A DNA stretch of 64,000 nt, taken from assembly GCA_930986425.1 (NCBI GenBank), contig CAKNJR010000004.1, positions 1 to 64,000 on the forward strand, written 5' to 3'. Origin of the DNA: an uncultured Clostridium sp. GTDB lineage: Bacteria; Bacillota; Clostridia; TANB77; CAG-508. The notes under the pieces were generated by a model. It was not told where the DNA came from. It saw only the letters and a list, made by a program, of their open reading frames with translations, and ran no database searches. Shown here in pieces: positions 28,694 through 63,620 of the stretch. Each line of letters opens with the position of its first letter. Position 1 is the stretch's first letter. A program made the position numbers and the translations under genes.

Positions 28694-28734
28694 ATATGTA
28701 TGTTAATTGTACTCATTTTGAGAGGATGTCGAAT

Positions 28735-31700
28735 ATGGAAAAATTAATGGAACTAAGCAGTCAGCAGAAAAATATTTGGAACTCTGAAATGTTCTATTCT
28801 AATACCAATATAAACAGCATTGGGGGATATTTATTAATAAATCAAAAAGTTAATATGAATTTATTGGAGAAAGCTGCAAATATATATATTAAGACTAACG
28901 AAGCTCTTAGATTACATTTTGACTTAAAAAATGGAGAGCCAATTCAATACATTACAGATTTTACTCCGTTCAAATTAAAAAAAGTTTCTGTGAAAAATAT
29001 TGATGAAATTCAAAAATTAACCACAGAGCTTGTTTCAAAACCCTTTGAAGTAATTAATTCTAATTTATATAATTTTACTTTGTTTGAAATGCCTGATGGC
29101 AAAGGTGGCATTGTCCCTGTTTTCCATCATTTAATTAGTGACGCTTGGAGTTGCTCACTATTTATTACAAGATTTATTGATATATATGCAGAGTTATTAA
29201 AAATTTCTTCTGATTCTCAGAACTCTGCTCTATTAAAAGCCTCGAACGATTTAAGCTTTTTAAGTGACTTTAAAGACGTTTTAGCTTTTGAAAATACTCC
29301 TAACTACTCTGATTACATTACTTCATGCAATGAGTATAAACAAAGTAATAGATTTATAAAAGATAAAGAATACTGGGAGAATACTTTTGACAAATCTCCT
29401 GAGCTTACATATATTTCGCGTAATAAAAATGCAAATAATTCAAAATCTCGCCGTAAGGTATGTTCTTTCGACGACGCTCTTTACGACAAAATTTTAGATT
29501 ATTGTAAAGCGCAGAAATGTTCTATTTATACATTTTTTATGGCCATCTTTTCTATTTACTTAGCGAAGATTAATTCAACATCTTCAGCTATTTTAGGCAC
29601 CCCTGTATTAAATAGAAGTAATTTTAAAGAGAAAAACACATCTGGAATGTTCGTAAGTACAGTTCCATTTAAAATAGATTTAGATTTCAATATTAATTTC
29701 AAAGATTTTTTAGACAAGGTTTCGCTAACGCAAGCCTCTATCTTTAGACACCAAAAATACCCATATTTAGAATTATTAGAGAATATAAAAGAAAAGTACA
29801 ATATAAGCGAAAACTTATATGATTTTGTGCTATCTTACCAAAATGCAAGAGATAATAAAGAGACCTCAAGTATCGACTATAAAACTACTTGGGAGCCTAT
29901 TTCTAATATTGCAGAATCAATTGAAGCACATTTTTATGATATGGATGGAAATAATGGTGCTAATATTTTATATGATTATCAAGTTGAAAAATTTGATGAT
30001 AAAGATATACTATGCTTACATAAAAGAATTTGCAATATAGCTGAGCAAGCTTTGCAAAATATCAGTTTAAAAGATATTACTGTTTTGTGTGATGATGATG
30101 AAAAAATAATAAATGATTTTAATAATACTCATTTTGATTATGATAAAAATGAGAGTTTAGTTAACATTTTTGAAAAGGCTGTTAAAGCACACGAAAATGA
30201 AACTGCTTATATTTTTAAATCTCAGTCTTTAACATATAAAGAGTTAGATGAAAAATCTAACATTATTGCTAATTATTTAATAAGTAGAGGCGTAAACAAT
30301 AATGATGTTATTGGTATAATGTTTAATCGTTCCTTAAATATACCTATTTCTATTTGGGGAGTACTAAAAACTGGCGCCGCATATATGCTTATTGACCCTA
30401 GTCTTCCTGAAGACAGAATTAATTATATGCTAACAAATGCTAATTCAAAATTTGTTTTGACTAATTTATATTTGAATTATGATTGTATAAATATTGATGA
30501 AGTGCTATCTAATGATGTAGTCGCAGAATCTAATGATAGTTCATCTAATAAAAGAGCTTCTAAGACAAGCACATCAAATTTTAACACTTCTCTACCTAAA
30601 GTAGATTCTTCAAATGAAGACAGATTTTGTGTTATTTACACATCTGGCTCTACAGGTACTCCAAAAGGAGTTGAGCTTAAGAGAATTGGTGTTATTAACA
30701 TGGTAAACAGCTACAAACAAATATTGCACACAGGCGAATGTAATGTATTTTTAAGTACAAGTACCGTTGCATTTGATATGTTTATAGTTGAAAATTTCGT
30801 TTCCATTCTTGATGGAAAAACTGTTGTTTTGGCTGATGAAGAAGAGCAAAAAATACCTGTATTTACTAGTAAATTAGTTACGGATTACAATGTAGATTTT
30901 ATATTAAGTACACCTTCTAAAATAACACTTTTATTGGAAGAATCTTCTTGCTTGAAAAATGTAAAGGTTATTCAATTAGGTGGTGAAGTTTTTAAAGAAT
31001 CACTATATAAAAAGTTAAAAAAGGCTAGTTCTGCAAGAATTTATAATGGTTATGGACCTTCTGAATGTACAGCTTGTGCATCTAATAAACTTGTAGAAAA
31101 TAGTGATAATATTTGTATAGGTAGACCATTTTTAAATACTAAAATTTATATCATGAATAATACTGATAATATTTTACCTATAAAAACTCAAGGTGAAATT
31201 GTTATTCAAGGTGATGGTGTTGGAAAGGGCTATGTAAACAAGTTTGAGTTTAATGGAATTTATCATACTGGTGATTTAGGTATGATATCTGAAGATGGAG
31301 AGTTAATTTATTTTGGCAGAAGAGATAACCAAATAAAGCTACATGGTTTACGTATAGAGCTTGACGAAATTACAAACAAGATAATGCAAATTAATGGATT
31401 TACAAACGCTATTACTGTTATAAAAAAAGTAGGCGGTATGGATGCTATTTGTTCATACATACAGTCTAAAGAAAGCATAGATGAATCATTAATAAAAGCT
31501 GAACTTTCAAAAAGTTTGCCAAAGTACATGGTGCCTTCTCACATTATGCAATTAGATACCTTCCCTATTACTTTAAATGGTAAAATCGATACTAAAAAAT
31601 TACCTGAAATTGTTGTTAAAGAAGATGAATTTGTAGCTTGTAATACTGATACTGAAAAGAAATTAGAAAAAATTTGTAAAAATATTTTTAATAGAGAAAA

Positions 31701-34700
31701 AATGAGCAGCATATCCAACTTCTTTGATATGGGGGCTGATTCTCTAGCTATTATTAGTTTTGTATCTGAAATATATAGCAAATTTAACTTAAAAGTTTCG
31801 ATACAAGATATTTATGCTTACCCTACAATTCATGATTTGGCAAGATTTATAGATAATTTAATTAGTCAAAATACTGAAAAAAGAGTAAATCAAAATATTA
31901 TTAAAAAGCATAAAGAAGCAAGTTCATATCCAGTTTCATCAGCTCAAAGAAGAATTTTTTATACAGTTAATATGGATTCTAACAGCTTAGCTTATAACAC
32001 ACCTTTTGGCATTATTTTTAAGAAGAAACCTGATATAAAAAAATTAGAGGAGTCTATTAAAAAAGTTTTGAACTCTCATGATGCTTTTAAAACATATTTT
32101 GTTTTAGAAAATAATGATGTAGTACAAAAACTTGTACCAAAAGTAGATTTTAATTTAAAAACTTGTAATTATAAAAATGATGAATTTGTTAAACCATTTA
32201 ATTTAGGCAAAGCTCCATTAATACATGTTGAGTTAGACCATTACGAAAACCAGTACCTATTACAATTAGATATTCATCATATAATTTGTGATGGCTCATC
32301 AATTGCCATTTTTATGAAGGAATTATGTGATTTATACAATGATAAAGAGGTAAACCCTTCTAAAATTGACTATATTGATTATGCCGTTTCTGAAAAAGTA
32401 CTTAAAGAGGACGAAGATTATTGGATAAACCAATTTAAAGATGAAATTCCTATTCTTAATATGCCTACTGAATTTGAGAGAGTTGCAGTTAAGTCATATG
32501 AAGGAAATAATGTATATTTATCATTAAATAATTTATCAGACATATCAAGTGTATGTAAAAAGTATAATGTTACTCCATATATGTTTTTACTATCTTGTTT
32601 TTACATATTACTATACAAATATACTATGCAAAATGACATAGTTATTGGAAGTCCTGTTATTGGAAGAAACAATCCTCAGCTTCATGATGTGATTGGTATG
32701 TTTGTTAATACTTTAGCAATTAAGCAAAATGTTCAATCAACTAACAAGTTTTCAAATTTCTTAGAACTTGTAAAAAATAATTGTTTAAATGCATATAATC
32801 ATCAAGCATATCCTTTTGATGAATTAGTAAAGAAGTTAAATGTTGTAAGAGATACTAGTCGAAGTCCAGTTTTTGATGTACTTTTTACTTACGAAAGTGA
32901 AGGTATACCTAAATTTGATTTTGGTGGAATTCCAGTAGAATATTATATACCAGAAAATAAAACTTCTAAATTTGATTTTTCATTAGAAGTTACACCAAAT
33001 GATGAAGGTTTTAAACTTAGACTTGAGTATTGTACTAAATTATTTAGTAAGCTCTTTATGGAAAATTTACTTGATTGCTATAACAATATAATAAAGGCAG
33101 TTTTATCAAATAATGATATTCAAATATCTCAAATACAAATGTTATCAAACATTCCAAATATTTACCCTACTTTAGATTATCCTAAAGAGGACAGAATTAT
33201 CGATTTATTTGAAAAACAAGTTAAGAAAACACCAAATAAAACTGCTCTAGTATTTGGAGAAAAAAAATATACATATAAAGAATTACAAGATAAAGTTAAT
33301 AAACTTGCTTTCTATTTGCATAGCCTTGGAGATAATGAGGTTGTTGGTATGCTTATGGATAGAAGTGATAGTCTTATTATTTCTCAGCTTGCTATATTAA
33401 AAGCTGGTAGTGGGTATATTCCTATTGACCCTACTTACCCTGAGGAAAGAATTAAATATATTATTGAAGATAGCGGAGTAAATGTAATTTTAACAGAAAA
33501 TAAATATAAAGATATAGTTCCTGTTAAAGCTATTTTAGTAGATGATGAAAGCAATTATAAAACTTATAAAGAATTTAAGACAAATCAAACTCCAGATAGT
33601 GTTGCCTACTTAATATATACATCTGGTTCTACCGGAAAGCCTAAAGGAGTTATGGTAAAACAACAAGGAGTTGTAAACTTTATTTGTGGTATGTTTAATA
33701 AAATGCCTCTTAAGAACTTAACGATGGTTTCTATTACTACTATGTGTTTTGATATATTTGCTTTTGAAAGCTTACTTCCATTATGCACAGGTATGAAAGT
33801 TGTTATGGCAAGTAATGAGGAACAAAATAATCCTATACTATTAAATGATTTATGCTTAAAAAATAAAGTAGATGTAATTCAAACAACACCATCAAAATTT
33901 AAATTACTTATGACTGAAAATTTGCCATACTTACAAAAATTGAAAATAATATCTTTAGCCGGAGAACCTTTCCCATTAGATTTATTAAAAAATATTAAAA
34001 AGGTTACAAAAGCTAGAATATACAATATGTATGGTCCAACTGAAACAACTATTGGTTCAACTCTTAAAGATTTGACTGATACAAATAAAATCAATATAGG
34101 TGAACCAATGCCAAATACTCATGTATTTGTTTTAGATAATGATATGAATTTTGTACCATATAATGTCCCTGGTATGTTATATATAGGTGGTGATGGAGTT
34201 TCTATTGGATATAAAAATAGACCAGAGCTTACGGCTGAAAAATATATAAATTACGGAAGTGAAAGAATTTATAATTCTGGTGATTTAGTAAAACTTCTTC
34301 CTAATGGTGAATTAGAATGTTTGGGAAGAGCAGATTTCCAAGTAAAAGTTCATGGTTTAAGAATAGAACTTGGTGAAATAGAAACAGATATATGTAGTTA
34401 TAAAGGTGTAAGAGATGCAGTAGTAACAGTAAAAAATGTTCAAGGCAGAGATATTTTGTGCGGATATTTCGTTGCAGATGGTAGAGTTTCACTATCTCTT
34501 CTAAAAAAATCTTTAGCAAAAAAACTTCCAAATTATATGGTTCCAAGTTATTTAGTACAATTGGAAACATTTAAGTATACACCTAATGGAAAAATAAATA
34601 GAAAAGTTTTACCTGAGCCTGTTTTTGAAGCAAAAGAAATTGTTGCTCCAAAAACTGAATTAGAAAATAAGATTTTAAATATATGGAGAACAATATTATC

Positions 34701-36093
34701 TTTAGAAGAAATAAGTATAAATGATAATTTCTTTGATATTGGTGGAGATTCTTTAAGTGCACTAAAACTACAGATTGAATTGATGAAGCTTAATTACAAT
34801 ATTAATTATGGAGATTTATTTAAAAACAATACAATTCATGATTTAGCTAACTTTATAGAAAACCATATAACTCAAAAATTAATGCCAACATACACCAAAA
34901 AGGATTTCAAAAAAATTGACAAATTGTTAAAGAAAAATACAACATTTAGAAGTATGAAATTAAAACAAAAAATGCTAAAAAATGTTCTACTTGTTGGTGC
35001 AACTGGATTTTTAGGTATACATGTTTTAGCAGAGTTGTTAAAAATAGATGATATAAAAATATATTGTTTAATACGTAAAGACCCTAGCACTTCACCCGAA
35101 AACAAATTAAAGCGTAAATTCCAATATTATTTTGGAAGTGATTTAAGTAATCTATTTGGTAAAAGATTATTTGTAATTGCTGGTGATATAACCAATGATA
35201 ATTTTGGAACTTCAAGTGATGTATATAGCTTTTTAGGAAAGGAAGTTCAAACAGTTGTAAACTGTGCTGCTTCTGTTAAGCATTATGGTTATTACGGAGA
35301 ATTTGAAAAAATAAATGTTACTGGTGTTAAAAATCTAGTTAAATTCTGTGAAGAATTTAATAAAGAATTTTATCAAACTTCTACAATAAGTGTATCTGGC
35401 AATACTATGACATCACTTCCAAGTAGTTATACACCAAAAAGGACTATATATTTTGGTGAAAATAATTTATTTATTAACCAACCTTTAGACAATGTTTATG
35501 TAAGAAGTAAATTTGAAGCTGAAAAATATGTATTAGAAGAAATTGCAAGCAAAAAGCTTAAAGGTCTTATACTTAGAATTGGTAATATTACTAATAGATA
35601 TACAGATGGAAAATTCCAAGAAAATAGCAGTGATAATGCATTTTTAAATAGACTTAAAGCTTTCTTATTCTTAAAAGAATTACCTAAATCTATTTTAAAT
35701 AATTACATAGAATTTAGTCCAGTTGATAGAATTGCTGAATCTATTGTAGTTTGTATGAAATATTATACTTATCCAATGACTGTGCTTCATTTATATAATT
35801 CTAATCATTTGTATATAAATATTTTTCTTGAATATTTAAATGAGTTAGGTTATGATATAAATGTAGTAGATGATGAAGTATTTAAAACTCATCTAAATAA
35901 GTTATTATTTAATAGTAATGATGCTGACAAAGTTAGTGTTTTACTAAATGATTTGGATAAAGACAGAAATTTAGTTTATAAAACAAATTTGAAAATAACT
36001 AATAAATTTACACTAAAATTCTTAGAGAAAGCCGATTTTAGTTGGCCAATTGTCACAAAAGAATACATTGAAAAAATACTAAAAAATTTGTAA
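28735..36093 (+). CDS. Two-module nonribosomal peptide synthetase with terminal reductase (C-A-T-C-A-T-R)
   Basis: 2,452 residues from ATG 28735 (GAGAGG 9 nt upstream). C1 has HHLISDAW (H131), a starter-like variant of HHxxxDG; A1 has YTSGSTGTPKG (Y635) and a Ser/Asn-rich insert near 592-630; T1 carries S1003 (GADSL); C2 has HHIICDG (H1181); A2 has YTSGSTGKPKG (Y1628); T2 carries S2006 (GGDSL); R is an NAD(P)H reductase with GATGFLG (2088) and YVRSK (Y2255, K2259). Expected product: N-acyl dipeptide released as an aldehyde, as known for gut Clostridia NRPSs whose products inhibit proteases or cyclise to pyrazinones. Hand-read pocket codes are D-M-V-L-Q-G-G-A-C-K (A1) and D-I-F-Q-S-A-M-I-G-K (A2); I do not assign substrates. 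Confidence 0.93.
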   Translation: MEKLMELSSQQKNIWNSEMFYSNTNINSIGGYLLINQKVNMNLLEKAANIYIKTNEALRLHFDLKNGEPIQYITDFTPFKLKKVSVKNIDEIQKLTTELVSKPFEVINSNLYNFTLFEMPDGKGGIVPVFHHLISDAWSCSLFITRFIDIYAELLKISSDSQNSALLKASNDLSFLSDFKDVLAFENTPNYSDYITSCNEYKQSNRFIKDKEYWENTFDKSPELTYISRNKNANNSKSRRKVCSFDDALYDKILDYCKAQKCSIYTFFMAIFSIYLAKINSTSSAILGTPVLNRSNFKEKNTSGMFVSTVPFKIDLDFNINFKDFLDKVSLTQASIFRHQKYPYLELLENIKEKYNISENLYDFVLSYQNARDNKETSSIDYKTTWEPISNIAESIEAHFYDMDGNNGANILYDYQVEKFDDKDILCLHKRICNIAEQALQNISLKDITVLCDDDEKIINDFNNTHFDYDKNESLVNIFEKAVKAHENETAYIFKSQSLTYKELDEKSNIIANYLISRGVNNNDVIGIMFNRSLNIPISIWGVLKTGAAYMLIDPSLPEDRINYMLTNANSKFVLTNLYLNYDCINIDEVLSNDVVAESNDSSSNKRASKTSTSNFNTSLPKVDSSNEDRFCVIYTSGSTGTPKGVELKRIGVINMVNSYKQILHTGECNVFLSTSTVAFDMFIVENFVSILDGKTVVLADEEEQKIPVFTSKLVTDYNVDFILSTPSKITLLLEESSCLKNVKVIQLGGEVFKESLYKKLKKASSARIYNGYGPSECTACASNKLVENSDNICIGRPFLNTKIYIMNNTDNILPIKTQGEIVIQGDGVGKGYVNKFEFNGIYHTGDLGMISEDGELIYFGRRDNQIKLHGLRIELDEITNKIMQINGFTNAITVIKKVGGMDAICSYIQSKESIDESLIKAELSKSLPKYMVPSHIMQLDTFPITLNGKIDTKKLPEIVVKEDEFVACNTDTEKKLEKICKNIFNREKMSSISNFFDMGADSLAIISFVSEIYSKFNLKVSIQDIYAYPTIHDLARFIDNLISQNTEKRVNQNIIKKHKEASSYPVSSAQRRIFYTVNMDSNSLAYNTPFGIIFKKKPDIKKLEESIKKVLNSHDAFKTYFVLENNDVVQKLVPKVDFNLKTCNYKNDEFVKPFNLGKAPLIHVELDHYENQYLLQLDIHHIICDGSSIAIFMKELCDLYNDKEVNPSKIDYIDYAVSEKVLKEDEDYWINQFKDEIPILNMPTEFERVAVKSYEGNNVYLSLNNLSDISSVCKKYNVTPYMFLLSCFYILLYKYTMQNDIVIGSPVIGRNNPQLHDVIGMFVNTLAIKQNVQSTNKFSNFLELVKNNCLNAYNHQAYPFDELVKKLNVVRDTSRSPVFDVLFTYESEGIPKFDFGGIPVEYYIPENKTSKFDFSLEVTPNDEGFKLRLEYCTKLFSKLFMENLLDCYNNIIKAVLSNNDIQISQIQMLSNIPNIYPTLDYPKEDRIIDLFEKQVKKTPNKTALVFGEKKYTYKELQDKVNKLAFYLHSLGDNEVVGMLMDRSDSLIISQLAILKAGSGYIPIDPTYPEERIKYIIEDSGVNVILTENKYKDIVPVKAILVDDESNYKTYKEFKTNQTPDSVAYLIYTSGSTGKPKGVMVKQQGVVNFICGMFNKMPLKNLTMVSITTMCFDIFAFESLLPLCTGMKVVMASNEEQNNPILLNDLCLKNKVDVIQTTPSKFKLLMTENLPYLQKLKIISLAGEPFPLDLLKNIKKVTKARIYNMYGPTETTIGSTLKDLTDTNKINIGEPMPNTHVFVLDNDMNFVPYNVPGMLYIGGDGVSIGYKNRPELTAEKYINYGSERIYNSGDLVKLLPNGELECLGRADFQVKVHGLRIELGEIETDICSYKGVRDAVVTVKNVQGRDILCGYFVADGRVSLSLLKKSLAKKLPNYMVPSYLVQLETFKYTPNGKINRKVLPEPVFEAKEIVAPKTELENKILNIWRTILSLEEISINDNFFDIGGDSLSALKLQIELMKLNYNINYGDLFKNNTIHDLANFIENHITQKLMPTYTKKDFKKIDKLLKKNTTFRSMKLKQKMLKNVLLVGATGFLGIHVLAELLKIDDIKIYCLIRKDPSTSPENKLKRKFQYYFGSDLSNLFGKRLFVIAGDITNDNFGTSSDVYSFLGKEVQTVVNCAASVKHYGYYGEFEKINVTGVKNLVKFCEEFNKEFYQTSTISVSGNTMTSLPSSYTPKRTIYFGENNLFINQPLDNVYVRSKFEAEKYVLEEIASKKLKGLILRIGNITNRYTDGKFQENSSDNAFLNRLKAFLFLKELPKSILNNYIEFSPVDRIAESIVVCMKYYTYPMTVLHLYNSNHLYINIFLEYLNELGYDINVVDDEVFKTHLNKLLFNSNDADKVSVLLNDLDKDRNLVYKTNLKITNKFTLKFLEKADFSWPIVTKEYIEKILKNL

Positions 36094-44686: not shown

Positions 44687-44762
44687 GCATCACTAGCTCA
44701 ATTGGCAGAGCAACAGACTCTTAATCTGGAGGTTCGGGGTTCGATTCCCCGGTGATGCACCA
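44687..44762 (+). tRNA. tRNA-Lys(CTT)
   Basis: Full cloverleaf: GCATCAC/GTGATGC acceptor, GCTC/GAGC D stem, anticodon loop CTCTTAA (CTT), CGGGG/CCCCG T stem with TTCGATT, encoded CCA. The integrase gene ends 9 bp past it, so its 3' end is the probable attachment site. Confidence 0.92.
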
Positions 44763-44770
44763 TTTAATGC

Positions 44771-46105
44771 CTAAATGGCATTATTTTTTTGAACAACTAA
44801 TGTTGACTCTATCAACGTTTTCATCCATAATTTTTGTAGGTTTTCAAGTTGTTGCTTTAATAAATCATCTGCAATATCATTTTGTACTGTATTTTCTTCT
44901 TTTTCAATAGTCGAAATTCCCCAAGCTTGCTCATATTCAGCTCTCTTTCTTTCATCAGATACAAAAATATAGTATTTTTGAGTAGTAGCAAACTCTGAAT
45001 GTCCCATTAATTTCATCAAAACTATATCTTTTACACCATGTTCTGATAAGAATGTGGCAAATGAATGTCTTAATCCATAAGGTGTTAAATATTCTAGGTT
45101 ATATTTTTTTCTAAACGAATTCATAGCTTTTGATAAATTTTCTGGTACATACGTTTGATGATACTTATTTAAAAATACAGGAGTATTCTCAGTCCACTTT
45201 AAACCTAATCTTTTAAATAGTAATTTTTGATTTTTCTTATGTTTAATCAAAATATTTCTATATCTTGGATGAACTGGTAATTTACGATAGCTATCCTTTG
45301 TTTTTAATGTATCATATTCCCTAATATGTCCTATTACCTCAGCATATTCATTATATACAGGGAAGTCTTTAAATGCTTGTTTTACTATAACAAAGTTAAA
45401 GTCTTCAACAAAACATGTCCAGTCTAATCCACAAGCCTCCTCAGGTCTAAAACCTTCTAAGAGCATTCCTTCAAACAGATATGCAATATCAGTTCCTTCC
45501 TTTTCAAAGCAATCCATCCAATAATTTTGACGGTTTGATTCTATATATATAAAATCATGTCCTTCTATACGAATTTTTGAATCACTTTGTGCTCTTTTAG
45601 GTTTTGATAAAGATATAGTTTTTTCTATATAGTTTTTTTCTTTTGCATAATTAGCAATCATACTTAAGACTACATAAACAGCCTCTTTATTGCGTGAGCC
45701 ATTTGTTTTGTCTATACAACTTTTAAAGTCCTCATTAGTAAGTAGAGTAATATCTGTATTGTCATTAAAGAATGGTATTACATCTAAATTTAATGTATTA
45801 TTATATCCTTGTAATGTCTTTCTGCTTAATGGATTTGGATTATCCTTTGATGCTTCGGTAAATGTATATTTATATTTAAACCATTCTATTGCTACCTTTT
45901 TAAACGATATTTTTCCTTGTATTTGACTGTTAGAATTAGTATTTACACTTACTTTTGGAAAGTTTGCTATGTTGCTAATCGTATTTCTTTTGGTTTGCAA
46001 AGTATTAAAACGTTCATCTTGAGAATTAATACTTTGGGGATTTTCTATATTTGAATTTTCTTCATCTAAAGAATAATTTATTGGTGTAATAGTATGATTA
46101 TTCAA
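44771..46105 (-). CDS. int: Tyrosine recombinase / integrase
   Basis: 444 residues from TTG 46105, overlapping the previous gene by 8 nt; no ribosome-binding site is visible, so translational coupling is likely. A SAM-like core-binding domain (about 70-175) is followed by the catalytic domain: GFRPEEACGL (first Arg), TPYGLRHSFATFL (second Arg; the usual His two before it is Tyr-Gly), LMGHSEFATTQKYYIF (His, nucleophile Tyr). It should integrate the element at tRNA-Lys. Confidence 0.93.
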   Translation of the reverse strand: MNNHTITPINYSLDEENSNIENPQSINSQDERFNTLQTKRNTISNIANFPKVSVNTNSNSQIQGKISFKKVAIEWFKYKYTFTEASKDNPNPLSRKTLQGYNNTLNLDVIPFFNDNTDITLLTNEDFKSCIDKTNGSRNKEAVYVVLSMIANYAKEKNYIEKTISLSKPKRAQSDSKIRIEGHDFIYIESNRQNYWMDCFEKEGTDIAYLFEGMLLEGFRPEEACGLDWTCFVEDFNFVIVKQAFKDFPVYNEYAEVIGHIREYDTLKTKDSYRKLPVHPRYRNILIKHKKNQKLLFKRLGLKWTENTPVFLNKYHQTYVPENLSKAMNSFRKKYNLEYLTPYGLRHSFATFLSEHGVKDIVLMKLMGHSEFATTQKYYIFVSDERKRAEYEQAWGISTIEKEENTVQNDIADDLLKQQLENLQKLWMKTLIESTLVVQKNNAI

Positions 46106-55092: not shown

Positions 55093-56161
55093 ATGGAACA
55101 AGTAAGCTATGTAAATTTACCGATTATCGGAAGAATACAGCATGGAGAACAAGTACCAATTGGAAATGGTAAAAAAAGAGCAAAAGAGTTAGGCCATTTT
55201 ATAGCAAAAGTACAAGACCAATATATGCAAGGCTATTTACAAAAATTTGACCAAATGTATAAAGGAAAAACAAGTATTGAAATTGAATTTATTACAGAAG
55301 AACCTTTTTCTTCAAAGTATTCAAGAAGTAATCAATCCCGGGCAAGTATGTTATTGTATGTTTGGAACAGATGAAGCAAATCAAAAAACACAGAATGGTT
55401 GGCAAAAAATTAAATGCTTAGGTTCTAATTGTCAATATAGACAGAAAAAACAAGTTGGACCACCTGATTGTAGAAAAGTGGGTTGGTTAAAGTTTTTAAT
55501 ACCTAAGGTCTCAACAGACAGAATATGGCTTATGAGAATCACAAGTAGTCAATCAATAGACTCATTAAACCAATATTTTTCTTTACAAAAAGAGCACAGA
55601 CAAAGTGTTAAAGGAAAATATATTTTATTTCTAAGAAAGGTTGAAAACTCTAAAAATGGAAAGACTTTTAGTAATTATATCGTTGATATTATGAAAAAAG
55701 AAGATTTTATTTCTAATACTCTCCCACAAAATAATAAAAATTCACAACCACAATCCACAACAAATGAGCAAATTGTGAATAACACTGTAGTAAATAGTAT
55801 TAAAAAAGAAAATGAAGAACTCAAAACTAAGGTTTCAAACCAAAATACTAAAAAAATAGCAAAAATTGAAATATCAGAAAACCCTGATATTGATAAGTGC
55901 TACTATTTTACAAATCACCATACTGAAACATTTATGAAAGACGGTAAACCTAAAGAATATTTTATAGGTGAATTTTATGATATGTCCGATAAGCCTGTTA
56001 ATCTTATTGTTAAGCCTGAATTAATTGATGGAATACTTAAATGTGGTATAGGCTCAGTATTTGAAACAGAAATACAGGAGTTTAATGATAAAAAAATACT
56101 AACAGATTTTAAATTCGTACAAAACAATGAAAAGGATGCACAAAAAAATATAGCAGCATAA
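55093..56161 (+). pseudogene. RDF/gp3-like protein gene split by a frameshift
   Basis: Two frames join into one protein of about 355 residues. 55093-55374 gives LPIIGRIQHGEQVPIGNGKKRAKELGHFI and 55247-56161 gives CLGSNCQY...CRKVGWLKFLIPKVSTDRIWLMRITSSQSIDSL, the pattern of recombination-directionality-factor-like (gp3) phage and ICE proteins. The break lies between CCTTTTTCTTC (55303) and TCCCGGGC (55336-55343); removing one base there restores the frame. The C-terminal third (Asn/Gln-rich linker, then KCYYFTNHHTETFMKDGKPKEYFIGEFYD) is an extra domain not typical of RDFs. Confidence 0.6.
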
Positions 56162-56519: not shown

Positions 56520-58503
56520 ATGAAGATTGATTATATCAAAACCATTCGGTTTCAGAAAATTCAAAGGGGTATTTGAAACAAAATTGTATGACACTACCTC
56601 TATTAGTGGCAAAAATCGCTCTGGAAAAAGTAATATTCTTTATGCTATTGTAAATATACTTTTAGGAACTAATCTGTCAGGAGATGAAAAATCTTGCCTT
56701 ATAAATCAAAATGTTGATAGTTCTTATGGAGAATTACATTTTACAGATAATCAAGGAATTAAACACATATTAGTTCGTATAAAAAATAGAGTTGGAACAA
56801 AAAATAATTCTATTACACTCGATGGAAAATCTATAACTCAAAATGAATTAATTAGCTTTTATAAAGATAAAAAATTATTTTTATCTATTATAAATCCACT
56901 TTATTTCTTATCTAAAAAGCCAGCAGAACAAAAAGAAATGCTAGATAAGTATTTATCCGATATAAAACCTATTGAAATTTTTAAAACTCTAAGTGATTTT
57001 CAACAGCAAAAATTGCTTAATAGATATTTTAGAATATCTGTAAGAGAAATGTACGATAGATTAAGTGAAAATGAGCTTAAAGAGCTTTATATTTCTAACA
57101 AATTACAAGAAAATACTAATAAACAATTTGAGGAACTATCACGAAAAGAATTGTTTATTAGCTTTAAAGATGTAGTTTTAAAAGATATAAAGTATTACTA
57201 CAAACTTTCTCAAAAAGAGCAAGAAGATTTTATAAATACTCATATTCTAAATATTTTTATGGATATTGCTTATGATAATTTAGAGAAAGAAGAGCAAAAA
57301 AAATTAGAGGCGATTCCAAGAGATATCCCTACATATATATCAGAATTGAATCAAGATATAAAAAAAGCAGAAACTTATATTTCTACTTTAAGTGGAAAGA
57401 TTGAATATGCACAAAATATAGCAGATGAAAATTTACCTAAAATTAAAAAGTTTGAAAAAGAAGTAGAACTTTCACTTGCATATCAAGAATTAGATTCTTT
57501 ATCCAATGATAAACAAATAAAGGAAAAAGAAAATCAAAAACAAAAAGTAGAGAGTTTAGAAAATGAAATTTTAAATATATCAACTGAAATTACAGAGCTT
57601 TCAAAAAACATGAAAGCAGGTAAACAAAAATATTTAGCGATAAAAAGTGGCACGGATTGCCTTTGTCCTACATGTGAACAGCATATACAAGATGAGGCAA
57701 AAGAAAAAACTATTGCTAATATGAAAAAGAATTTGACAGATGCTTTTAACAAGAAAAATACATTAGAGACAAAAGAAAAGGACTTAAGGTTTAAACTTGC
57801 AATGGAAAGATGTCAGTATCACGCATTAGGTGGAGATACCAGTATAGATAATAATAAGAAAATCGCTAATATAAAAGAAAATATAGATAAATTAGAATTA
57901 GAGAAAAAAGAAATTGAAAAATTTAATAATGAAATTTTTATTAAAGAAAAAAATATACAAAATGCTAAAAATGATATATCTAATTTTAATAATCAAATTT
58001 CTGTTCAAAACAAATTAATTAGTGATTTAAAAGAATCAAAGAAAGTAGCCCAAAAGTTATATATTTCTTTTATTGAAGAAAAGATGAAACTTGCTAAGCA
58101 TTATTTAAAAGATGTTACGGTAAAATTCTACTCTGTTTTAAAGACTACTGGAGAAATAAAAGATGATTTTGTTATTACTTATAAAGGTAATTTATTATCT
58201 GATTTGTCTAGGTCTGAAACTATTGCAACAGCTTTAGAATTTGCTAATATGTTTAATAATATTGCAAGGACTAATTTTCCTATTTTTATTGATGATTACG
58301 AAAGTTGCGCTGATTATGATTTTATAAAGAAATATACTAACAACACTCAAATAATTGTATCTAATGTAGTCAAAGGCGAAAATTTAAAAATTACAGATTA
58401 TTATAATAGTGAAGATTGTACTATTATAAAACCTGTAATCACTAACGCAAAAACTATCAAAGTTTATAACAAGAATACTACTGCTATTTCAAAAGCAGCA
58501 TAA
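56520..58503 (+). pseudogene. Rad50/SbcC-like ATPase with a frameshift in the first codons
   Basis: The main frame from 56527 reads about 658 residues: P-loop GKNRSGKSNI, a long coiled coil, a CPTC zinc hook-like motif (CLCPTCEQHI), a second coiled coil, and a C-terminal ATPase half (SDLSRSETIATALEFANM, FPIFIDDYESC). A proper start is ATG 56520 (AAGGAG 9 nt upstream), reading MKIDYIKTI, after which an extra base in CCATTCGG (56542-56549) shifts the frame to GFRKFKGVFE. Restored, the start is MKIDYIKTIGFRKFKG, as expected for SMC-like proteins. Related small ATPases of elements act in DNA repair or replication. Confidence 0.75.
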
Positions 58504-58567: not shown

Positions 58568-58984
58568 ATGAAAATAAAATGTTTATTAGTAATGCCTAAT
58601 AAGGAAGTACAAAAGGTTAAAATACCTGGAAATATAAAATTTATTAAATCATTAATAGGAGACAATTTGCTTAGAATAAGGACAAATAAAAATAATCTAA
58701 TTATTGCTAATCAAAATGCTGAAAACGATGAATTTAATAGACTTTTTCAGGGTTGCATATTATATGGAACTTTTTTAGTTGTTTCAATAAAAAATAAAAA
58801 ACTAACTTCTATGAAAAAGAAGGATATCAGAAAGTTCTACAATATGTTTAAGTTAGTAAAACACCAAAAGAAAATTTCAAAATACAAAGAAGAATTTTGG
58901 GAAGAGTACTATTACAGACAAAGAGAAATGAAAGAAAAAAATAGAGAGCATAATAAAGAGTTTATCTTTAAAAATGCTGCTTAA
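58568..58984 (+). CDS. DUF3846-like protein
   Basis: 138 residues. N-terminal half: MKIKCLLVMPNKEVQKVKIPGNIKFIKSLIG, then NDEFNRLFQGCILYGTFLVVSI, the DUF3846 pattern common on phages and conjugative elements. The C-terminal half is a basic/acidic helix. Function unknown. Confidence 0.6.
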   Translation: MKIKCLLVMPNKEVQKVKIPGNIKFIKSLIGDNLLRIRTNKNNLIIANQNAENDEFNRLFQGCILYGTFLVVSIKNKKLTSMKKKDIRKFYNMFKLVKHQKKISKYKEEFWEEYYYRQREMKEKNREHNKEFIFKNAA

Positions 58985-59000: not shown

Positions 59001-59285
59001 ATGAATAATTATGAAACAGTTTTTTTAATAAAGGATAACATTACAGATGAACAAAGGAATTCTGTTGTTGAAGAAATTAAGAATTTTCTTGTAAAAAAAG
59101 GAAAAATCTCAAAAGTTGATGATTTAGGTAAAAGGATGCTAGCATATAAAATTCAAAATCATCAATATGCGTATTATATTGTAATTTATTTTTCAGGAAC
59201 TCCTGACATTATTCCTGAATTAGAAAGAAAATATCGTATTAATGAAAATATACTTAAATTTATAATTGTTAAACAAGATAATTAG
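59001..59285 (+). CDS. rpsF: Ribosomal protein bS6 homologue
   Basis: 94 residues from ATG 59001 (AAGGAAGGA upstream), usual bS6 size. MNNYETVFLIKDNITDEQRNSVVEEIKNFL, DDLGKRMLAYKIQNHQYAYYIVIYFSG and LERKYRINENILKFIIVK are all bS6 landmarks. In chromosomes rpsF is followed by ssb and rpsR; here ssb follows 14 bp later but rpsR does not. It is inside the mobile element, so this is an extra copy or a diverged RNA-binding protein. Confidence 0.85.
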   Translation: MNNYETVFLIKDNITDEQRNSVVEEIKNFLVKKGKISKVDDLGKRMLAYKIQNHQYAYYIVIYFSGTPDIIPELERKYRINENILKFIIVKQDN

Positions 59286-59299
59286 AAAGGAAGGAAAAT

Positions 59300-59728
59300 A
59301 TGAATAAAACAATTTTATTAGGGAGATTAACAAAATCTCCAGAAATTAAATTTTCACAAGCGAATAATGTAAAAATTGCTACATTTAGTTTAGCTGTAAA
59401 TAGGAAATATACTAAAAAAGGTGAAGAAAGTCAAGCTGACTTTTTCAATATAATTACCTTTTCTAAACTTGCCGACTTCGTAGAGAAGTTTTTAAATCAA
59501 GGTACACAAGTTTGTATTAGTGGTAGACTTCAAACACGAAACTATGAGGATAAGAATGGTATTAGAAGATATGTAACAGAAGTTATTGCTGAAGAAATTG
59601 ATTTTGCTGATAGTTATACAAAACTTGAAGGAAATACTGATAATACACAAGAGACTGTTAGTAATAATCTAAATGAAAAAAATACACAAGAAGATTTTAT
59701 TTCTAATGGTGATGATTTACCATTTTAA
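59300..59728 (+). CDS. ssb: Single-stranded DNA-binding protein
   Basis: 142 residues. OB fold with MNKTILLGRLTKSPEIKF, VATFSLAV-like IATFSLAVNRKYTKKGEESQADFFNIITFSKLADFVEKFL and GRLQTRNYEDKNG; an acidic tail ends DDLPF. It coats ssDNA during replication or transfer. It forms a chromosomal-style rpsF-ssb pair. Confidence 0.95.
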   Translation: MNKTILLGRLTKSPEIKFSQANNVKIATFSLAVNRKYTKKGEESQADFFNIITFSKLADFVEKFLNQGTQVCISGRLQTRNYEDKNGIRRYVTEVIAEEIDFADSYTKLEGNTDNTQETVSNNLNEKNTQEDFISNGDDLPF

Positions 59729-59742
59729 AGGAGGTTTAAGCT

Positions 59743-60084
59743 ATGCAAAAATTAATCAATAAATATTTTAATGAATTATGCAAAGAAAAATTTTTCAAAG
59801 AGGATGATGAAGAACTAATTGGAAAAGCAAAAGATGTTATTGATAACTTAACTAGTCAAATAGAATATGCTAAAGACCCAGCAAATGCACTTAATGAATG
59901 CGATATAGAATTTGTTGTGAATGAAGCGACTGATTTGATACAAGAAATCAATAAACATTATCAAGATAAAGACGATGTCATTGAAATAGCTCTTCATCCA
60001 ATGTCAGGTTTTTATGTGCTACAAGATAAAGAAAAACTACTAGAAGAATTACAAGATTATTATGAAGAATTGGAGGAAAAATAG
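59743..60084 (+). CDS. Acidic protein of unknown function
   Basis: 113 residues with many Glu/Asp (LEELQDYYEELEEK end). Helical, soluble. AAAGGAGG lies 8 nt before the ATG. The family is unknown to me. The acidic surface could mimic DNA, but nothing shows this. Confidence 0.6.
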   Translation: MQKLINKYFNELCKEKFFKEDDEELIGKAKDVIDNLTSQIEYAKDPANALNECDIEFVVNEATDLIQEINKHYQDKDDVIEIALHPMSGFYVLQDKEKLLEELQDYYEELEEK

Positions 60085-60085
60085 T

Positions 60086-60364
60086 ATGGTAACAAATATA
60101 GTAAGTGTAAAATATGAAGATAAATACAAGCCTAAAACATTTAGTGGGAAAGCATATTCTTATTTCACTGCAATTCCTTTAGCTGTGGGGGATTTAGTCG
60201 TTGCTCCAACAGCTTACGGTGAAAAAATCGCAAGAGTATCAGTTATAGATATTCCAGAATTCCAAGTTGAATTTATGCAAGCCAGTTTAAAATTGATTAC
60301 AGAAAAAATCGACAAGCAAAAATATTTAGAAGAAAATAAAATAATATCTCAAGAGGCTGCATAA
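60086..60364 (+). CDS. Small beta-rich protein of the element
   Basis: 92 residues from ATG 60086 (TTGGAGG upstream). KPKTFSGKAYSYFTAIPLAVGDLVVAPTAYGEKIARVSVIDIPE resembles a compact beta barrel of the PriA-N/DUF type. Function unknown; conserved-looking within such operons. Confidence 0.55.
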   Translation: MVTNIVSVKYEDKYKPKTFSGKAYSYFTAIPLAVGDLVVAPTAYGEKIARVSVIDIPEFQVEFMQASLKLITEKIDKQKYLEENKIISQEAA

Positions 60365-60365
60365 T

Positions 60366-60767
60366 ATGAACGGTAAGGAAATAGCAGATATTCTAGTTCA
60401 AAAATTAATTTCTAATGGATTTATTGTTCACAAATATAATTCACATACTACAAGTTCAATTTATCTAAAATTAGATTATGGACTTTCTTGTGGAATTAGA
60501 ATAGCAGACCATCCCGGCAAAAAGAAATATAGTTACAGATTTAATGTAATAAAAGACTATCTTGGAGATAAGGTCATCATAAAAGATGGCCTTATTTGCC
60601 GTTTTTATGACTTTACTGAACTAGAAAATGTAATAATTGCAGTGCAAAAAGAAAGACAGGAAAAAATTAATAAATATGGCTTACAAAACTACAAAAAATA
60701 TATGGAAAGAGAATCCAAAGATGATTTATATACAAGATTTAAAAAAATGGAGGTAAAAAAGAAATGA
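60366..60767 (+). CDS. Unknown protein of the element
   Basis: 133 residues: IADILVQKLISNGFIVHKYNSHTTSSIYLKLDYGLSCGIRIADHPGKKKYSYRFNVI, probably an alpha/beta sandwich with a helical basic tail. Its stop overlaps the pcfK start by 4 bp. Not recognised. Confidence 0.6.
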   Translation: MNGKEIADILVQKLISNGFIVHKYNSHTTSSIYLKLDYGLSCGIRIADHPGKKKYSYRFNVIKDYLGDKVIIKDGLICRFYDFTELENVIIAVQKERQEKINKYGLQNYKKYMERESKDDLYTRFKKMEVKKK

Positions 60768-61189
60768 CTGGTTTTGAAAGGTTAAAAGAACAAGTAAAAG
60801 ACCAAGAAGACAAAGCTTTAGTACAAACAGTAGAATACTTATTAACTCGTGAAGACATAGAAGAAGATTATCTAAAAGAAGAAAAAACACTTGAAGGAAT
60901 GTGTAAATTTATAAAAAATAAGGCAAAAAAATATATGAAAAACGGTTGGAACTATATTACTAACGAAGTAGTTTATTCATGGGCTGTTATGTATTTTTCA
61001 TTGCCTGATTTGTTTTTAGGAATAGAACATAAAGAAGTAACTAAAACTAAAACGAAATCAAATACAAAAAAATCCTCTAAAAGTTCTAATACTAAAAATA
61101 ATATAGTTTCATTAGAGCAGGCCAAAAAAGAAATAGAAAAAAAGAAAGAAACTACACAACTTTCCTTATTTGGAGGTGTTGCTAAATGA
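60764..61189 (+). CDS. pcfK: PcfK / AcrIIA9-like protein
   Basis: 141 residues. The N-terminal helical domain (about 1-90) holds FERLKEQVKDQEDKALVQTVEYLLTR...TLEGMCKFIKNKAKKYMKNGWNYITNEVVYSWAVMYF, the PcfK signature. The basic Ser/Lys-rich tail ends in QLSLFGG, which resembles a sliding-clamp-binding motif. AcrIIA9, a Cas9 inhibitor, belongs to the same family. Overlaps pcfJ by 4 bp. Whether this copy inhibits Cas9 is not known. Confidence 0.85.
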   Translation: MTGFERLKEQVKDQEDKALVQTVEYLLTREDIEEDYLKEEKTLEGMCKFIKNKAKKYMKNGWNYITNEVVYSWAVMYFSLPDLFLGIEHKEVTKTKTKSNTKKSSKSSNTKNNIVSLEQAKKEIEKKKETTQLSLFGGVAK

Positions 61190-62760
61190 AACAAGGAGAA
61201 ATAGAAAGCATGATGGATAAAATTGATAAAAGATGCAAATTGCCTAAGTATTGGAATGATTTTATAGAAAAACAAGTACAAAATTTTCATTATATTATTA
61301 AAGATACAAAGCGAAGAGAATGTTACTGTACTAATTGTCATAATACTTTTTATGATACGAAAGTGAGAATTGGAAATTATTTTAAATGTCCAAATTGTAA
61401 AAATGAAATATATGTAATTAGCAAAAGCCAAAATTATATAAAAAGTTTTAAAAAATCTGTTAATTTAGTACAAAGGATAAATAAAAACATTATTACAAGA
61501 GTATTTGAAATAGAAGTATTTTATAATAAAGATAAAAAAATTATGGACAGAGATATTGTAGAATATTGTAGAATTATTCCAGGAAAAGGTAAATTTTTAA
61601 ATGATAATGTGTGGTTTTGCCTTGGTTATATGCATATATCTCATTATAATTATTTAATAAATAATATTAGTTGGAGAAAATATAATGGATGTAGATTTTT
61701 TAGTGATTTTACAACATATCCTTACAATAAAAAGAAAATAGTAAAAGGTACAAAATTTGAATATGCTCCTATTCTAGAGTTTACCAAGATGTTTTATCCT
61801 TATAATTTTATTGATGTTACCGAACTAGCAGCATACGAAAGCTTCGAATTATTATGGAATATGAAATTATATAATCTATGTTTTAGTGCAAAGAGATTAA
61901 ATAAAAAAGGGAGCTTTTATAAAGTATTTGGGTTACCTAAGAATTATCTTAAATTTATGCAAGATAACAATATAGATTATAAAGGCTTAAAACTACTTCA
62001 ACTATTTAAAGTTCAAGATATTAATTTGATAAAAAAATGTTATGATAGTAATTTTAGAGATATAAAGTTTTTATATAAAAATGGTATATTAAAAAATTAT
62101 CTAGCCTCTGGAAACAAAATATATTTAGAAAATATAAAAATGTTAAAGGAAATTAGTGAGTTTATACCATTGCGCAAGTTAAATAATTATCCCAAAGGAT
62201 TAAAGAATTTGCCTATATATAGAGACTATCTTGTTATGTCAAAAAAATTATCATATCATTATAAATCAAGAAAAGATTTATTCCCCAGAAATTTAATATC
62301 AAGGCACGATAAAATGCAGAAGAAAATTACTATTCAAGAAGATATGGACACACAATTTAAAGCATATTTAAGATATTTAGATTTATCCAAATATACTTAT
62401 GAAGATGATAAATATATTATTTTTCCTGCACCTAGTATAAGTGATTTAAAGAACGAAGGAACTCAACAAGGAAATTGTGTTGGCTATATGTACTTAAATT
62501 CATATATAGAAAATAAAACTGAAATTTATTTTATAAGAAATTTATCAGAGGTTACTAAATCATTTATAACCCTAGAATTTAAAAATGGCCATGTAGTTCA
62601 AAAGGAATTACCTCACCATAGTAGAGATTTTACGGATGAACAAAATGCTTTTATTGATAAATGGATTGGGTTTAGAAATTTTATAGATTTAAAAGAAAAG
62701 TACAAGAAAAAACAGGAAATTAAAGTCATCAAATATAATTTCAAAAAGATGGCTTCCTAA
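61186..62760 (+). CDS. pcfJ: PcfJ-like protein
   Basis: 524 residues. An N-terminal zinc ribbon (CYCTNCH...FKCPNCKNEI, about 44-70) and the C-terminal PcfJ core LKNEGTQQGNCVGYMYLNSYIENKTEIYFIRN. It is a conserved protein of conjugative plasmids and ICEs and travels with PcfK. The molecular role is unresolved. Confidence 0.88.
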   Translation: MKQGEIESMMDKIDKRCKLPKYWNDFIEKQVQNFHYIIKDTKRRECYCTNCHNTFYDTKVRIGNYFKCPNCKNEIYVISKSQNYIKSFKKSVNLVQRINKNIITRVFEIEVFYNKDKKIMDRDIVEYCRIIPGKGKFLNDNVWFCLGYMHISHYNYLINNISWRKYNGCRFFSDFTTYPYNKKKIVKGTKFEYAPILEFTKMFYPYNFIDVTELAAYESFELLWNMKLYNLCFSAKRLNKKGSFYKVFGLPKNYLKFMQDNNIDYKGLKLLQLFKVQDINLIKKCYDSNFRDIKFLYKNGILKNYLASGNKIYLENIKMLKEISEFIPLRKLNNYPKGLKNLPIYRDYLVMSKKLSYHYKSRKDLFPRNLISRHDKMQKKITIQEDMDTQFKAYLRYLDLSKYTYEDDKYIIFPAPSISDLKNEGTQQGNCVGYMYLNSYIENKTEIYFIRNLSEVTKSFITLEFKNGHVVQKELPHHSRDFTDEQNAFIDKWIGFRNFIDLKEKYKKKQEIKVIKYNFKKMAS

Positions 62761-62768
62761 AAGGTAAA

Positions 62769-63620
62769 ATGAATACTAAATACAATAGAAGATTAAAAGC
62801 TAAAGAAATATATGATAAGGTTGTTAATAATGTACTAACAATAATGAAAAATGGAGAATATGAAAAGTTTTTGAAATTTCAAAATCAATTTACTAAATAC
62901 AGTTTTAATAATACTGTGCTTATATTTAGTCAGTTTCCGGATGCTACAAATGTTGCAGGAAAAGCTAAATGGAAAAGATTAGGTCGAGAATTAATAGACG
63001 GCGCAAAGCGAATACAAATAACTGCAGGTATGCCAGCTCAAGGTAAAACTACTGTGAAAAGAATTATAGATGGTAAAGAAATTGAAGAAACTCAAATCTA
63101 CAATTATACTGCCTATAAACCAGTTTATGTATATGATATATCTCAAACAATAGGAGAACCAATGCCACTAGAAGTTAAAATGCTTGATAGTAAAAATATG
63201 GGTTCTTTTTTTGAAAAATTAAAACAATTTAGTAAATTCCCTATTTATGAAAAAGAACTTGAACAGGGTGTAAAAGGTTATTATAGCCCTAAGTATAAGG
63301 AAATATCAATAGAAAAAAGAATGTCTATTGATGCTAAAACAGCTGTGTTATTACATGAGCTAACGCATGGTCTATATGATGATTTTGATTATAAAGTAGA
63401 TAGAAACTTATCAGAAATTTTTGTTGAATCTGTTGCTTACATAGTAGCAGATTACTTTGGTCTTGATAATTCTATGTGCAGTTTTAATTACATAACGCAA
63501 TATGCAAAAGGAAATCCGAAAATCATAATTGATTTAGGTTCAAAAATAAAAAAATGTGCAACCGATTTTATAAAAGAACTTGAAGAGTTTGAAATTAAAG
63601 AAAACCAACTTGTTGCATAG
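62769..63620 (+). CDS. ArdC-like antirestriction protein with metallopeptidase domain
   Basis: 283 residues. N-terminal DUF1738/ArdC ssDNA-binding domain (KYSFNNTVLIFSQFPDATNVAGKAKWKRLGR) and a C-terminal ImmA/IrrE-type domain with HELTH (H196, E197, H200) and a downstream Glu (SEIFVESVAY). ArdC proteins protect entering DNA from restriction. AAAAGGT is the ribosome-binding site. Confidence 0.85.
   Translation: MNTKYNRRLKAKEIYDKVVNNVLTIMKNGEYEKFLKFQNQFTKYSFNNTVLIFSQFPDATNVAGKAKWKRLGRELIDGAKRIQITAGMPAQGKTTVKRIIDGKEIEETQIYNYTAYKPVYVYDISQTIGEPMPLEVKMLDSKNMGSFFEKLKQFSKFPIYEKELEQGVKGYYSPKYKEISIEKRMSIDAKTAVLLHELTHGLYDDFDYKVDRNLSEIFVESVAYIVADYFGLDNSMCSFNYITQYAKGNPKIIIDLGSKIKKCATDFIKELEEFEIKENQLVA

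Follow-up and report, generated by a model that had tools for sequence, protein, structure and literature searches.

Why would a mobile element carry the gene of a ribosomal protein? Transfer of ribosomal proteins is generally regarded as rare, and the question is posed by a bS6 gene (rpsF) lying next to ssb in the genome of a gut Clostridia species. Contig C4 (103.9 kb), part of a genome of 1.76 Mb in 34 contigs, begins with the 64-kb stretch analysed here, 'the window'. A sequence-only reading of the locus had proposed that a mobile element copied the chromosomal rpsF-ssb order without rpsR, and that its bS6 might alter host ribosomes, control its own mRNA or have been kept for the translational coupling of ssb. 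The mobile bS6-ssb pair without rpsR has stood up to analysis; the copying of the host locus and the control of its own mRNA have not, and the coupling to ssb is weak. An action on host ribosomes is the reading we tentatively prefer.

A second bS6 gene on an integrated element

The product of the rpsF-like frame (Table 1) scores 94.4 bits against the Pfam family Ribosomal_S6 (cut-off 27) and 83 bits against the bS6 equivalog TIGR00166 (cut-off 42.9). Its AlphaFold2 model (pLDDT 96.5) has the canonical beta-alpha-beta-beta-alpha-beta order of strands and helices, and the 60 PDB sequences listed are S6 proteins without exception. The ssb gene begins after a gap of 14 nt, and no rpsR was found near the pair, the single rpsR of the genome being chromosomal. 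The gene is confirmed as a second, element-borne bS6 gene next to ssb.

The carrier, a predicted ICE of about 52 kb, is inserted in tRNA-Lys(CTT). An exact-repeat search returned no repeats of at least 14 bases as an attachment site; a gapped search found the 3' part of the tRNA repeated 52 kb further on (58 bp, 84%). In the genus-mate G148 the corresponding flanks, CorA, Mbeg1 and tRNA-Lys on one side and PMT, VanW and LexA on the other, lie only ~6 kb apart, and its intact tRNA-Lys shows 100% identity to the right-hand repeat across 47 bp. The right repeat is therefore the original host tRNA end, for which the element supplied a replacement. Between the repeats are encoded VirB4/TraG (66.9 bits) and a VirD4-type coupling protein (T4SS-DNA_transf, 129 bits), both above cut-off, a pilin-like protein slightly below its cut-off (23.4 bits versus 26.6), a CHC2 zinc-finger primase, PcfK/PcfJ and an ArdC-like protein. 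Neither a Pfam relaxase nor phage structural genes were detected among the element ORFs scanned, and the window bS6 protein has no match in a viral contig collection; a candidate relaxase ORF adjoins VirD4 (C4:82868-83791). Integrase, tRNA repeat and T4SS genes together bear out the proposed mobile element with bS6 and ssb and without rpsR. The ICE also encodes a SpaA/thioester-domain surface protein of 1002 aa beyond the window (C4:84956-87964), and the chromosomal part of the window holds an ORF of 2465 aa (28696-36093).

With a genome contamination of 6.6%, a foreign rpsF might have been placed on the contig by contamination or misassembly. This explanation is refuted by synteny, the C4 flanks matching those of G148 on both sides; the module moreover recurs in many independent assemblies and the genome has no second rpsR. 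We regard its probability as practically nil.

Table 1. Features of the integrated element and its rpsF-ssb module (window coordinates unless stated otherwise)
Feature	Position	Strand	Remarks
tRNA-Lys(ctt)	44687..44762	+	integration target
Attachment repeat, left copy	44707..44764	+	right copy beyond window, C4:96899-96956
Tyrosine integrase of ICE	44771..46105	-	60.4 bits
Gp3-like (recombination directionality factor-like) protein	55247..56161	+	
SbcC/AAA-like ATPase	56527..58503	+	same module as rpsF
DUF3846 protein	58568..58984	+	usual neighbour upstream of rpsF in module
bS6, 94 aa	59001..59285	+	ATG start with AGAAAGGAAGG ahead; Pfam, TIGR00166 and predicted fold
SSB, 142 aa, tail end DDLPF	59300..59728	+	own Shine-Dalgarno; 108 bits
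orf113	59743..60084	+	recurrent module member
orf100	60062..60364	+	recurrent module member
orf133	60366..60767	+	recurrent module member
PcfK-like protein	60764..61189	+	35.3 bits, cut-off 27
PcfJ-like protein	61186..62760	+	76 bits
ArdC-N/metallopeptidase-like protein	62769..63620	+	scores under Pfam cut-offs

Were this the only rpsF of the host, the locus would have to be chromosomal. Another copy was looked for and found: contig C1 carries a complete rpsF-ssb-rpsR operon, including the one rpsR of the genome. ICE and host bS6 are 38% identical and the corresponding SSBs 46%, while the ICE bS6 is 64-65% identical to the bS6 proteins that related elements of the family sample encode. A bS6 phylogeny run against the host copy groups the ICE protein with element copies and not with the host gene. 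Whatever the element once copied, it was not this host's locus; by sequence comparison, the window bS6 is no recent copy of the host gene and belongs to an older mobile lineage.

Distribution and element contexts

Our family sample comprises 195 genomes of the host family, the window genome included, and at least two bS6 matches were found in 26 of them (own genome counted). The other 25 were searched again with a profile, and the extra copies were fetched and annotated. An extra bS6 copy without adjacent rpsR is present in 24; the second match of the first search in G152 was absent from the profile re-search. Including the window genome, 25 of the 195 genomes hold an extra bS6 without rpsR. 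One genome, G045, has an element-type bS6 alone and no rpsR, its chromosomal operon probably missing from the assembly. In a control search a second rpsR match occurred in six of the 195 genomes and in none of the 26, the extra bS6 coming without a second bS18; since double rpsR never coincides with double bS6, contamination does not account for the extra bS6. The six genomes with a second rpsR are G040, G068, G105, G147, G155 and G184, four of them in one genus.

Outside the family the search covered 380 genomes of a class sample of 391 and yielded no confirmed extra mobile bS6, in a comparison that is rough because the queries differed between samples. Two genomes of the class sample gave a second bS6 match: G525, rejected as mobile as it has two ordinary operons, each with rpsR, and G420, whose match is weak (E 2.5e-4). 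A tblastn search of plasmid and phage collections gave 52 plasmid and 20 phage records, and three plasmid and four phage records were examined. Two annotated plasmid records and the four phage records were rejected as sources of a mobile bS6, the whole chromosomal rpsF-ssb-rpsR being present; the third plasmid record, which is unannotated, was assigned by script to the loci with rpsR in the vicinity and is read as bacterial chromosome. The records MT836774, MT837110, MT838492 and MT836813 are labelled Bacteriophage sp., yet hold the chromosomal rpsF-ssb-rpsR operon.

Within the family, at least three kinds of element, and probably five, carry the extra bS6 genes; the labels type A to E for them were coined in the present analysis. 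Type A, to which the window module belongs, has the order DUF3846 - [S6fus] - rpsF - ssb - orf113/100/133 - PcfK - PcfJ - ArdC-like - primase; of the 28 loci retrieved, five repeat a contig already present, as judged by equal lengths, which leaves 23 distinct bS6. A DUF3846-anchored search of the 195 genomes gave 12 strong modules, with rpsF between DUF3846 and ssb in nine. It is missing from the other three, so rpsF is dispensable for the element. Type B (L146, L156, L159-L161), a related backbone, combines an AAA ATPase, S6 and ssb, with ArdC in four of five loci (L161 is a short contig). In type C (L142, L144, L147-L151, L154) the S6 has an acidic tail, with a mean of 11 acidic residues after position 92; VirB4, VirD4-type, DUF3846 or RadC genes lie near L147-L150 and L154, though not near every type C locus. 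The last four of the type D loci (L143, L152, L153, L155, L157, L158) adjoin a resolvase gene. In type E (L057, L059, L064, L073, L074, L078, L117; L163 is, by its length, the contig of L078) S6 stands alone amid small genes, and these loci are likely to be mobile elements. One further, weak S6-like ORF (L145) falls outside the five types. DUF3846 near S6 outside type A was seen in three of eight type C and two of eight type E loci, with one E contig entering the count twice, versus none of 40 chromosomal loci, a modest link beyond type A. As mobile relatives recur on several kinds of element, it is suggested that the elements use S6 for something, possibly on the host ribosome.

Two trees bear on how these lineages relate to the chromosomal genes. 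In a first bS6 tree, built from 105 rows and limited to 95 columns, type A clusters apart from the family chromosomal bS6 and the six distinct type E sequences form one clade (support 100/94); the ICE group also took in four distant chromosomal sequences, a placement treated as long-branch error. When types B to D were included in a second tree, type A joined most of type D (support 83, modest) and type C lay near some chromosomal rows. The mobile copies probably arose inside the host family, and their placement against the host clades is poorly resolved in these trees. The A-type ssb cluster apart from chromosomal ssb (20 of 21 rows), and nested among them are those of two loci without rpsF (L131, L133), where rpsF has therefore probably been lost.

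The rpsF leader

In E. coli, according to the accessible text of PMC4647458, bS6:bS18 binds the leader of its own mRNA and regulates it. If the ICE bS6 joined host bS18 in binding the ICE mRNA, it could likewise regulate the mobile rpsF-ssb. The host-family rpsF genes have a conserved leader immediately before the Shine-Dalgarno sequence. From its position, and from the accessible parts of two papers (PMC4647458, PMC10931766), it probably corresponds to the S6:S18 site of E. coli and B. subtilis. Rfam reported two tRNAs and nothing else in the window and no leader even at the host rpsF, and for this reason a covariance model (R1) was built from 29 host-family chromosomal leaders. Applied to 38 other chromosomal loci, the model detects the leader in 37, with scores of 43.7-77 bits; the sole miss, L076, has its leader site cut by the contig end. 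Since L058 and L077 stem from the same contigs as training rows L015 and L039, and L038 and L079 from a single contig, the count free of repeats and training data is 34 of 35. At mobile rpsF genes the leader was found in none of 35 loci (28 type A and 7 type E; 30 distinct contigs), and on the whole ICE contig the best score, ~14 bits, lies elsewhere than at rpsF. The known form of the autogenous control thus fails for the mobile copies, and such control of the ICE mRNA is very unlikely.

Selection, ribosomal residues and a diverged paralogue

The mobile rpsF genes are under purifying selection. Thirteen pairs were chosen and 12 gave values, with dN/dS of 0.14-0.30 in ten and 0.59 in two very close pairs. 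As a yardstick for ribosomal residues we used the 23 positions that are invariant across 63 chromosomal bS6 of the family. The mean share kept is 0.90 in type A, 0.96 in E, 0.82 in C, 0.76 in D and 0.63 in B, and the window bS6 keeps 0.87. The 23 distinct type A proteins have a mean best identity of only 0.50 to family chromosomal bS6. At the same mean identity, 15 chromosomal bS6 of other lineages keep 0.77, a control biased by the probable origin of the mobile copies within the host family.

A second S6-domain protein, S6fus (~214 aa), directly precedes rpsF in 10 distinct type A elements (L046-L051, L060, L066, L071, L091). The N-terminal ~90 residues are recognised as bS6 (48 and 46.7 bits), and its model resembles the S6 fold with Z 14.8 and an rmsd of 2.8 over 95 residues, a comparison made mostly over residues 1-104; the C-terminal part is a separate predicted domain (pLDDT about 85). 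S6fus is basic, its S6 domain having a mean net charge of +9.5 (n=4). Six pairs gave dN/dS of 0.11-0.27, so the protein is under purifying selection, yet it keeps 0.28 of the 23 invariant positions. Beside ssb in type B, three of five S6 sequences keep 0.48-0.57. Given that type B and S6fus have lost many invariant residues, an S6 beside ssb need not be ribosomal.

These data bear on the idea that rpsF is a passive hitch-hiker, a rpsF-ssb fragment having been captured for ssb and rpsF left as a translational or transcriptional lead-in. The shared rpsF-ssb order of element and chromosomal operon would fit, as would the separate grouping of both A-type genes from their chromosomal counterparts and the probable loss of rpsF in L131 and L133. 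Purifying selection on rpsF speaks against it, and so does the Shine-Dalgarno sequence that ssb itself possesses in nearly all loci with a clear ssb start. In addition, L071 has rpsF and S6fus without ssb, an extra ORF separates rpsF and ssb in L130 and L011/L045, and the bS6 genes of types C, D and E have no ssb neighbour. We consider hitch-hiking improbable. The proposal that rpsF was kept for coupling to ssb is weakened by the same features: an independent Shine-Dalgarno at ssb, intervening genes, rpsF without ssb and bS6 without an ssb neighbour.

On or off the ribosome

Our tentative preference, held at somewhat below an even chance, is that the ICE encodes a ribosome-competent second bS6, which would partner host bS18 on the 30S platform without being subject to feedback. 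The protein would be made together with the ICE ssb module, compete with host bS6 for the host's only bS18, and replace it on some 30S platforms, near the anti-Shine-Dalgarno region. Translation might thereby be changed or secured when the element is active or has just arrived. Any excess S6:S18 would still repress the host rpsF-ssb-rpsR operon; the level of the ICE bS6, we propose, would not be fed back by S6:S18, as its own mRNA lacks the leader. A mobile platform protein has a precedent, because in F. johnsoniae the 16S 3' tail sits in a platform pocket made up of bS6, bS18 and bS21 (accessible text of PMC9976891), and phage bS21 enters E. coli ribosomes (accessible text of PMC6375957). Counted in favour of the ribosomal reading are the family-model scores, the residues kept, dN/dS, the fold, the leader loss and the lack of a second bS18; counted against it are that the conserved residues also hold the fold, that the control is biased, that type B and S6fus are degenerate, and that three of 12 modules do without rpsF.

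The main rival is a serious one, namely recruitment outside the ribosome: the S6 fold would bind nucleic acid or protein in the service of conjugation, replication or establishment, together with SSB, DUF3846, a RadC-like protein or S6fus. The varied contexts of the S6 domains point this way, beside ssb in types A and B, with VirB4, VirD4-type or RadC genes in C, with recombinases in D and alone in E, as does the recurrence before S6 in 10 elements of an S6fus that is selected, yet without the ribosomal residues. Two type C S6 domains also share one open frame with a RadC-like JAB domain (L147:3301-4560, L150:4947-5840). A RadC-S6 fusion is not claimed, since an internal ATG with a Shine-Dalgarno-like sequence precedes S6 in these frames, which may be in-frame overlaps; this makes the fusions doubtful as support for recruitment. 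Types A, C and E, furthermore, keep most of the ribosomal residues, seemingly beyond what the fold needs as judged by type B and S6fus. Recruitment outside the ribosome is accordingly a reading we take as quite possible without thinking it probable.

A broader conjecture, which we consider rather unlikely, is that the S6 fold is a recurrent working part of conjugative elements in this one gut Clostridia family, acting on incoming or replicating ssDNA or on early translation in the recipient. If it were true, S6 in conjugative elements, whether ribosome-like, with a diverged S6-domain partner or in frame with RadC, would give a ribosomal protein a new role outside the ribosome.

Relation to known systems and outlook

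The ICE copy shares with chromosomal bS6 the fold, the family models, most invariant residues and the rpsF-ssb order, but it differs in having neither rpsR nor leader, in belonging to a separate mobile lineage and in its low identity to the host copy. In terms of the S6:S18-regulated rpsF leader described in the accessible text of PMC4647458, the host copy has a leader in the right place and the scanned mobile copies are without it. Virus-encoded ribosomal proteins are already known: bS21, bL12, bL9, HPF and others are likewise mobile and under purifying selection, and the same survey, in its accessible text, names bS6 among the proteins of phages of animal-associated bacteria (Mizuno 2019, PMC6375957). 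Here, in contrast, the carrier is conjugative and not a virus, and there are several S6 lineages and a diverged paralogue. We know of no bS6 in the leading or establishment regions of conjugative plasmids. Those leading regions also bring ssb together with ArdC-like and primase-type genes in a single module, as far as the accessible text of two papers goes (PMC11541004, PMC7213743). For an ICE-borne rpsF no paper was found in open-licence PubMed Central, where the closest by search terms, in their accessible text, concern ICEBs1 (PMC3542172, PMC4595007).

A conjugative lineage with its own bS6, and without bS18 or the leader, offers a natural test of ribosome tuning at the platform against re-use of the fold for DNA transfer. 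With ribosome-like and degenerate S6 proteins both encoded beside ssb, the two readings are directly separable.
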